Source: Aeropyrum camini SY1 = JCM 12091
Lineage (GTDB): Archaea; Thermoproteota; Thermoprotei_A; Sulfolobales; Acidilobaceae
Length of the DNA stretch: 64,000 bases
Assembly (NCBI RefSeq): GCF_000591035.1
Contig: NC_022521.1
Location: forward strand, 186,001 to 250,000
Direction of reading: 5' to 3'
The notes under the pieces are model-generated. The model had not been told where the DNA came from, searched no databases, and saw nothing but the letters and a program-made list of their open reading frames with translations. The translations under genes were made by a program, and so were the position numbers. Positions 8,274-9,487 of the stretch are shown here, one piece after another; positions within the stretch are counted from its first letter, which is position 1, and each line of letters begins with the position of its first letter.

Positions 8274-9487
8274 TTAACCCTTCTCAACTCTGGATGCAGC
8301 GCGAGCCTTCAGACCGGCTATAATGCTCGATAGGGGTATCTCGACGGGGCAAACCTCGTCACACCTACCGCAGCCAAGGCATAGGTAGCTTATCTCTCCC
8401 GCAAGGTCCTCGCCAAGCGTTATAGCTGTCCAGCCCATCCCCATCGGCCCGCCGTACGCCGGGCCGCCCCACAGGTTTGCCGTGTGGAGGAAGACGGGGC
8501 ACTCGAAGCTGCATCTACCACATCTTATACACCTCAGCTGCTCTACTAGAAAGGGTGGCTAGCAGCCTTCATCCTGCCATTGTCGAGGAGGACCACGTGG
8601 ACCTCCCTGGGGCCGTGGGCCCCCAGCACCTTTATCTGCTCTATATCCCCGGTGGCGGATGGACCTGTTATGAGAGATATATAGACCGGCATCCAGAAGC
8701 CAGCGAACGCAGCCTGCACCAGGGCCACGTTAACGGCGTCCCAGACCGTGGGCACTATCTTGTCTATAGGCACCAGGGCCACGTGGACGGGGGGGAGGGA
8801 GGATACCAAGCGGATGTTGCCCTCGTTCTCGACCAGCACTATTGTGCCTGTCTCTGCAGACAGCGAGTTGGCCCCGGTTATCCCTACTCTGGCTTTGAAG
8901 AATTTCTCCCTTAAAAACTGTCTGACCGCGGCCACCATGCCCTCTACGTCGCTTGGGTCAACTTCTATGCCCAGCTTATCCCTTATTATCCTAGCGGCCC
9001 TCTCCCTCGTCATGTGCACAGCGGGGGCTACATTGTGCATGGGCTTGACACCTTCAAGCATAACCAGGAGCTGGCCGAGATCCGTTTCCCAAACCTCGCT
9101 TCCCAGGGACTCGAGGTACTCCCTCAGGCCAATCTCCTCAGCCGCCATGCTCTTAGACATGACCACGATGGAGCCTCTACCCACAATCTTACCCACGATC
9201 TCCCTCGCATCCTCAGCAGTCTCCGCGTAGTAGGGGTTTGCCCCCACCCTGCGCAGAGACTCGACAGCCTCCTCAACAAGCTCTCCCAGGCGCCCAACGC
9301 TCTCCCTCTTAACCTCCGCAACCCTTTTAGCAGCCTCAAGTATCTCCGGATTTCTCGAGAGTATCTCAGCCACCTTCTTCTGGTTGTTCAGGCCGCTCCT
9401 CATCAAGCCCTCCTGGAAATCCCTGTCCTCCAGAGCCCTCGAAACCTCATCTATAACATCGTCAAGGGGGCTACCCACGGATAACAC
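8274..9487 (-). CDS. LutB/LldF-like LUD-domain iron-sulfur protein, frame broken at a -1 slippery heptamer
   Basis: Belongs to the lactate-utilisation family: an N-terminal LUD domain (about residues 60-300; SMAAEEIGLREYLES, GITGANSLSAETGT) followed by a C-terminal 2x[4Fe-4S] domain. The N-terminal frame stops at TAG 8548-8546 after NGRMKAASHPF. The ferredoxin part (CIRCGRCSFECP and CLGCGRCDEVCP) continues in the -1 frame to TAA 8276-8274. Joining them at CCCTTTC (8555-8549) leaves 14 residues between NGR and CIRC, the spacing I recall for intact LutB proteins (NGRSKxLADPEYREALxCIRC). Either programmed frameshifting, a mutation or a base error explains it. GTG 9487 lies about 25 nt after a TATA box near 9511-9520. 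No lutA or lutC is adjacent. Confidence 0.85.
8549..8555 (-). promoter_or_regulatory. Candidate -1 ribosomal frameshift heptamer C_CCT_TTC
   Basis: In the zero frame the codons are CAC CCT TTC TAG, which fits X_XXY_YYZ (C CCT TTC) with the stop codon immediately 3'. A -1 slip restores the frame encoding both ferredoxin clusters. The -1 frame has its own stop (TAG) only 4 codons earlier than the zero-frame stop, so the shift must occur within about 12 nt, exactly where the heptamer lies. Confidence 0.55.

Follow-up and report, generated by a model that had tools for sequence, protein, structure and literature searches.

A LutB-like gene of Aeropyrum probably expressed by programmed -1 ribosomal frameshifting at a conserved slippery heptamer

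We analyzed a LutB-like gene on the minus strand of a 64,000-nt stretch of the Aeropyrum camini genome (the window), covering bases 186001-250000 of a single contig of 1,595,994 bases. Its LUD and ferredoxin parts lie in different reading frames that meet at a slippery heptamer, and programmed -1 ribosomal frameshifting very probably yields two proteins from it, a LUD-only and a LUD-ferredoxin form. Judging from the genomes compared, synthesis of the full iron-sulfur protein almost certainly depends on the ribosome slipping back by one base. The site is strongly supported by comparison, and conserved slippage of such a kind in an archaeal cellular gene is rare.

The initial annotation had ended the LUD frame at a TAG directly past C_CCT_TTC and continued a two-[4Fe-4S] domain in the -1 frame; read on the minus strand, the window sequence bore out this description on both points (Table 1). 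The match to the LUD domain (PF02589, E=2.3e-55) spanned residues 71-301 of the 313-aa 0-frame ORF, and the domain is thus complete 12 residues ahead of the stop. The C-terminal end of this ORF reads ...DNGRMKAASHPF-TAG, i.e., ...NGRMKAASHPF-TAG, and the stop adjoins the heptamer (CA[C_CCT_TTC]TAG). Past the heptamer, the -1 frame is open (LVEQLRCIRCGRCSFECP...CLGCGRCDEVCPVEIP...VEKG-TAA). Two overlapping ORFs, the second in the -1 frame, jointly encode one conserved protein. The shift had also been placed in a narrow permitted window of about 12 nt with the heptamer inside; the heptamer does lie within it, but 10 nt separate the -1-frame stop from the 0-frame stop.

Table 1. Features of the LUD-ferredoxin gene and its junction (positions in the window)
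Feature	Position	Strand	Remarks
0-frame ORF, LUD domain protein, 313 aa from the GTG at 9487	8546..9487	-	stop TAG 8548-8546
Slippery heptamer CCCTTTC, 0-frame reading C_CCT_TTC (Pro-Phe; would re-pair on CCC-TTT)	8549..8555	-	in frame in six of six Aeropyrum genomes
-1-frame TAG bounding the permitted shift window at its 5' end	8559..8561	-	
0-frame TAG bounding the permitted shift window at its 3' end	8546..8548	-	followed by a second TAG, 8545-8543
-1-frame coding region, 91 aa (LVEQLRCIRC... to ...SRVEKG) plus TAA 8276-8274; two [4Fe-4S] motifs (Fer4_8)	8274..8549	-	PF13183, E=4.3e-16
Second-line 0-frame stop TGA within GAGCAGCTGAGGTG	8534..8536	-	present without variation in six of six genomes; four of them have it as their first 0-frame stop

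Searching the genus with the DNA of the gene gave a homologue in each of the six species-level Aeropyrum genomes, the other five at 68-84% DNA identity. The LUD frame ended at the junction in every one (open frames of 314-338 aa), and C_CCT_TTC was kept in the correct phase, within the permitted shift window, in all six. Alignment columns 1-8, CCCTTTCT, were invariant, as were the eight cluster cysteines and the openness of the -1 frame. What surrounds the heptamer was less constant. The 0-frame stop is a TAG directly past the heptamer in two genomes and a TGA four to six codons further on in the other four, and the upstream -1-frame limit varies too, giving permitted windows of 10, 10, 22, 28, 37, and 43 nt, each containing the heptamer. 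In two genomes, the slippery sequence is extended: G003 carries four overlapping X_XXY_YYZ heptamers with a CCCTTT repeat (GGGCCCTTTCCCTTTC, L051:2251-2266), and G005 carries three (GGGAAACCCTTTC, L053:4533-4545). A single-base break beside short homopolymers could suggest an assembly or sequencing error, but the same base is affected in two single-contig and four draft assemblies that differ from the window at 16-32% of DNA positions. The relatives refute such an error, and its probability is negligible.

The six Aeropyrum proteins were monophyletic in a tree of 35 proteins (support 100/98), so that one event on the Aeropyrum stem suffices. Across the order, 99 of 214 genomes contained a match to the gene. 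Full-length homologues outside the genus were encoded by one open frame of 375-484 aa, with one of 733 aa (G053). No such homologue elsewhere in the order had the same break; in G171, the match fell into two partial places. A TGA in G193 was considered as a similar break and rejected, as it sits at the N-terminal border. An uninterrupted frame in close relatives had been named at the outset as an observation that would count against frameshifting; the opposite was found, the whole genus being broken and other genera uninterrupted.

When joined at the heptamer, the Aeropyrum product matched intact relatives in both length and residues. The uninterrupted L027 reads NGRKKAAEHPFLKEQLRCIRC at the junction, and the joined Aeropyrum sequence reads NGRMKAASHPFLVEQLRCIRC. 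The spacing of 14 residues between NGR and CIRC, given in the initial annotation for intact relatives, was recovered in the joined product (MKAASHPFLVEQLR) and in the intact L026 and L027. An intron or a bypass was rejected, the joined protein having neither extra nor missing residues relative to these relatives. At the junction, L026 and L027 carry CAC-CCN-TTC-CTN, and the break is therefore most simply one lost C after CCTTTC. We propose that this C was deleted directly past CCTTTC on the Aeropyrum stem, fixed once and retained since, and that the deletion may have been tolerated because the remaining sequence was slippery. In the outgroups G044 (L054:2035-6031) and G045 (L055:1966-6016), the genes ahead of the intact LUD-ferredoxin gene encode a GlcD-type FAD oxidase, a stand-alone Fer4 protein, and a CCG protein, the components of a 2-hydroxyacid oxidase of the lactate or glycolate type.

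Selection was assessed in both halves of the gene. Synonymous differences among the six genomes were close to saturation in each half (pS 0.45-0.82), and the heptamer was unchanged nonetheless. Pairwise dN/dS in the ferredoxin half was 0.04-0.27 where computable, indicating purifying selection. The numbers of variable columns at the three codon positions were 14/11/36 of 42 upstream of the heptamer, counted in the 0 frame, and 34/22/69 of 80 downstream, counted in the -1 frame; the -1-frame pattern was already present in the first 60 nt downstream (6/2/15 of 20). By these counts, codon periodicity changes frame at the heptamer, and the break and the slippery site are conserved with selection on both frames. 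A decaying ferredoxin tail, with the LUD domain as the sole product, would agree with the break itself and with the lack, throughout the genus, of the GlcD-Fer4-CCG-LUD neighborhood of the two outgroups. A decaying tail would not be expected to keep the low dN/dS, the eight cysteines, and the open -1 frame across six genomes whose synonymous distances are nearly saturated, and we rejected this highly improbable explanation on dN/dS and codon periodicity.

We also estimated how often such a site would occur by chance. In-frame X_XXY_YYZ heptamers had a background frequency of 86 per 18,958 codons. Calculated from local codon use for the peptides encoded, the probability of an in-frame CCCTTTC was 0.12-0.19 per genome. 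Multiplied by hand over five clearly separate lineages, with camini and pernix counted once, this amounts to a joint chance of ~4e-5, before the conservation of the break itself is counted. The heptamer chains in G003 and G005 each had a chance of ~0.01 given the peptide. When the window and ~56 kb of further Aeropyrum DNA were scanned blind for a heptamer followed by a 0-frame stop and a long -1 ORF, the LUD-ferredoxin locus was the sole hit.

Under programmed frameshifting, ribosomes would translate the LUD domain as far as CAC-CCT-TTC. The fraction that does not slip would terminate within a few codons, releasing a complete LUD-only protein of about 313 aa. In the slipping fraction, the P-site tRNA-Pro and the A-site tRNA-Phe would move one base back, from CCU to CCC and from UUC to UUU, and reading would resume at CTA to give a 404-residue protein with LUD and two [4Fe-4S] motifs like that of neighboring genera. 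A. pernix has a tRNA-Pro(GGG), and its only tRNA-Phe is tRNA-Phe(GAA) (PMC4307357); these pair in both registers, so both can re-pair after a slip. The conserved break, the in-frame heptamer, the selection on both halves, the change of frame at the heptamer, and the fitting length of the joined product support the programmed -1 frameshifting initially proposed. The transframe protein itself is inferred, as are the slip on the ribosome, its efficiency, any regulation, and the function of the short form.

A base added by RNA polymerase slippage or RNA editing would place part of the mRNA in one frame and produce an identical protein, and genomes show DNA only. Polymerase slippage, however, would have no requirement for the X_XXY_YYZ phase, which all six genomes preserve. 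Known transcriptional slippage runs are much longer than three C and three T, and such slippage is thus not expected here. We consider this route very unlikely.

A stimulatory RNA structure 3' of the site, which the initial annotation had suggested looking for, did not emerge: among nested (pseudoknot-free) folds, no stem was conserved or unusually stable (z-scores -0.46 to +1.36 at 37 °C). At 85 °C, the model left the first 60 nt 3' of the site with almost no fold. By inspection, no conserved 5' Shine-Dalgarno-like enhancer was present at the usual distance. If there is no stimulator, the heptamer itself must account for the efficiency, and the chains in G003 and G005 are consistent with this. 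A more far-reaching version, in which stimulator-free -1 shifting at about 90 °C, driven by the heptamer or heptamers, acts as a regulated switch between the LUD-only and LUD-ferredoxin forms, is doubtful. A possible control point of such a switch would be the modification state of tRNA-Phe. The synthesis of wyosine derivatives requires an iron-sulfur radical-SAM enzyme. Wyosine derivatives also restrain -1 slips (PMC7761594), and iron or redox state could thereby set the ratio of the iron-sulfur subunit.

The 3' side of the heptamer contains a second nearly invariant block, GAGCAGCTGAGGTG (8530-8543, minus strand), which holds the invariant 0-frame TGA and a Shine-Dalgarno-like GAGGTG; the block may reflect nothing beyond the EQLRC codons. 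An out-of-frame ATG lies 6 nt past the GAGGTG in five of the six genomes.

The GAGGTG also bears on gene fission, in which the LUD and ferredoxin parts would be two proteins, the second begun by termination-reinitiation at a non-standard codon beside the stop. The stop codons do overlap the start of the second frame, and a (C/T)TG codon stands ahead of AGG-TGY in all six genomes (TTG in G002, G003, and G005), and in A. pernix TTG often serves as a start (52% of the proteins detected; PMC5911459). The resemblance of GAGGTG, at the same place, to a Shine-Dalgarno sequence would likewise suit reinitiation, but GAGGTG overlies the first cysteine codon, so a start that it served would lose the first cluster motif. 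Moreover, in G000, G001, and G004 the stretch from the -1-frame stop to the first cluster cysteine lacks ATG, GTG, and TTG alike, and fission leaves the invariant in-frame heptamer and the heptamer chains of G003 and G005 unexplained. On these sequence features, ordinary reinitiation is unlikely, and we give fission as a whole only a small probability.

With its frames joined by a -1 shift, the gene encodes LUD (PF02589) and two [4Fe-4S] motifs of Fer4_8 (PF13183) in one polypeptide, as in LutB/LldF. Its TIGR00273 score of 349.5 bits was below the equivalog cut-off of 444.8, so the initial label of LutB-like is the correct name and the protein is not LutB proper. The lutABC neighborhood with LutA (CCG) and LutC was absent: the genome has one LUD gene, and its sole CCG protein is encoded ~110 kb away. 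The gene is flanked in the window by a dihydroorotate dehydrogenase gene and an RNA polymerase Rpb7-like gene, and GlcD-like genes are found elsewhere in the genome. The CCG-domain protein (L048:2524-4635; G000:C1 about 81523-83634) has 704 aa with Fer4 and two CCG domains and a probable N-terminal membrane segment; it is a possible electron-transfer partner. Across the family, a genome almost always carries a single LUD gene, so the LUD-only form could replace LutC. That it stands in as a LutC-like subunit is a guess; it may just as well be a side product of the deletion having been tolerated.

Several known systems resemble the Aeropyrum gene in part. Bacterial dnaX (tau/gamma) likewise produces truncated and full-length proteins, without and with a C-terminal domain, from one gene. 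Its A_AAA_AAG site has a Shine-Dalgarno-like element on the 5' side and a hairpin on the 3' side, whereas features of neither kind were found at the Aeropyrum site. Magnesium chelatase (chlD) of bacteria and methanogens has overlapping ORFs in one gene and a conserved heptamer under selection, but its site is A-rich (A_AAA_AAR), the protein and phyla are different, and chlD cassettes, any archaeal ones included, were tested in E. coli (PMC3711429, PMC5009743). The methanogen gene is likely a further archaeal case (PMC3711429, PMC5009743).

A parallel in Thermoproteota is fucA1 (alpha-L-fucosidase) of Saccharolobus solfataricus, a cellular gene in which a -1 shift at a heptamer (A_AAA_AAT) is needed for the full protein and which a 2021 review gives as the one -1 frameshift reported in archaea (PMC8211752). 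It is the sole archaeal cellular-gene -1 frameshift called demonstrated in the literature searched. In contrast to the genus-wide Aeropyrum break, the interruption of fucA1 is confined to strains P2 and 98/2, and other Sulfolobales have full-length versions; fucA1 has a putative stem-loop and rare CAC codons (PMC8211752). The Aeropyrum gene has C_CCT_TTC and no stem that we found, and its support comes from comparison. Aeropyrum is not mentioned in these recoding papers (PMC8211752, PMC3711429, PMC5009743), and no paper on its LUD-ferredoxin site was found in searches of a mostly open-access literature. LutB/LldF (TIGR00273) proteins also have LUD followed by Fer4_8, and the short Aeropyrum form has the LUD-only architecture of LutC (PMC3924224); the Aeropyrum protein differs in scoring below the LutB cut-off and in having one LUD gene per genome and no lutABC operon. 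A LUD-only lutB with a frame-shift was described in Deinococcus radiodurans, where its authors suspected poor sequencing (PMC3924224); given the Aeropyrum case, it merits rechecking.

The Aeropyrum gene is liable to be split or labeled as a pseudogene by annotation pipelines. Its proposed frameshift is directly testable through the junction-spanning tryptic peptide AASHPFLVEQLR, which is identical in A. camini and G001 (taken as A. pernix K1). Folds in the downstream RNA should be weak in the host, a hyperthermophile. If true, a genus-wide site kept at nearly saturated synonymous distance would mean that archaeal ribosomes use -1 shifts as a stable part of expression.
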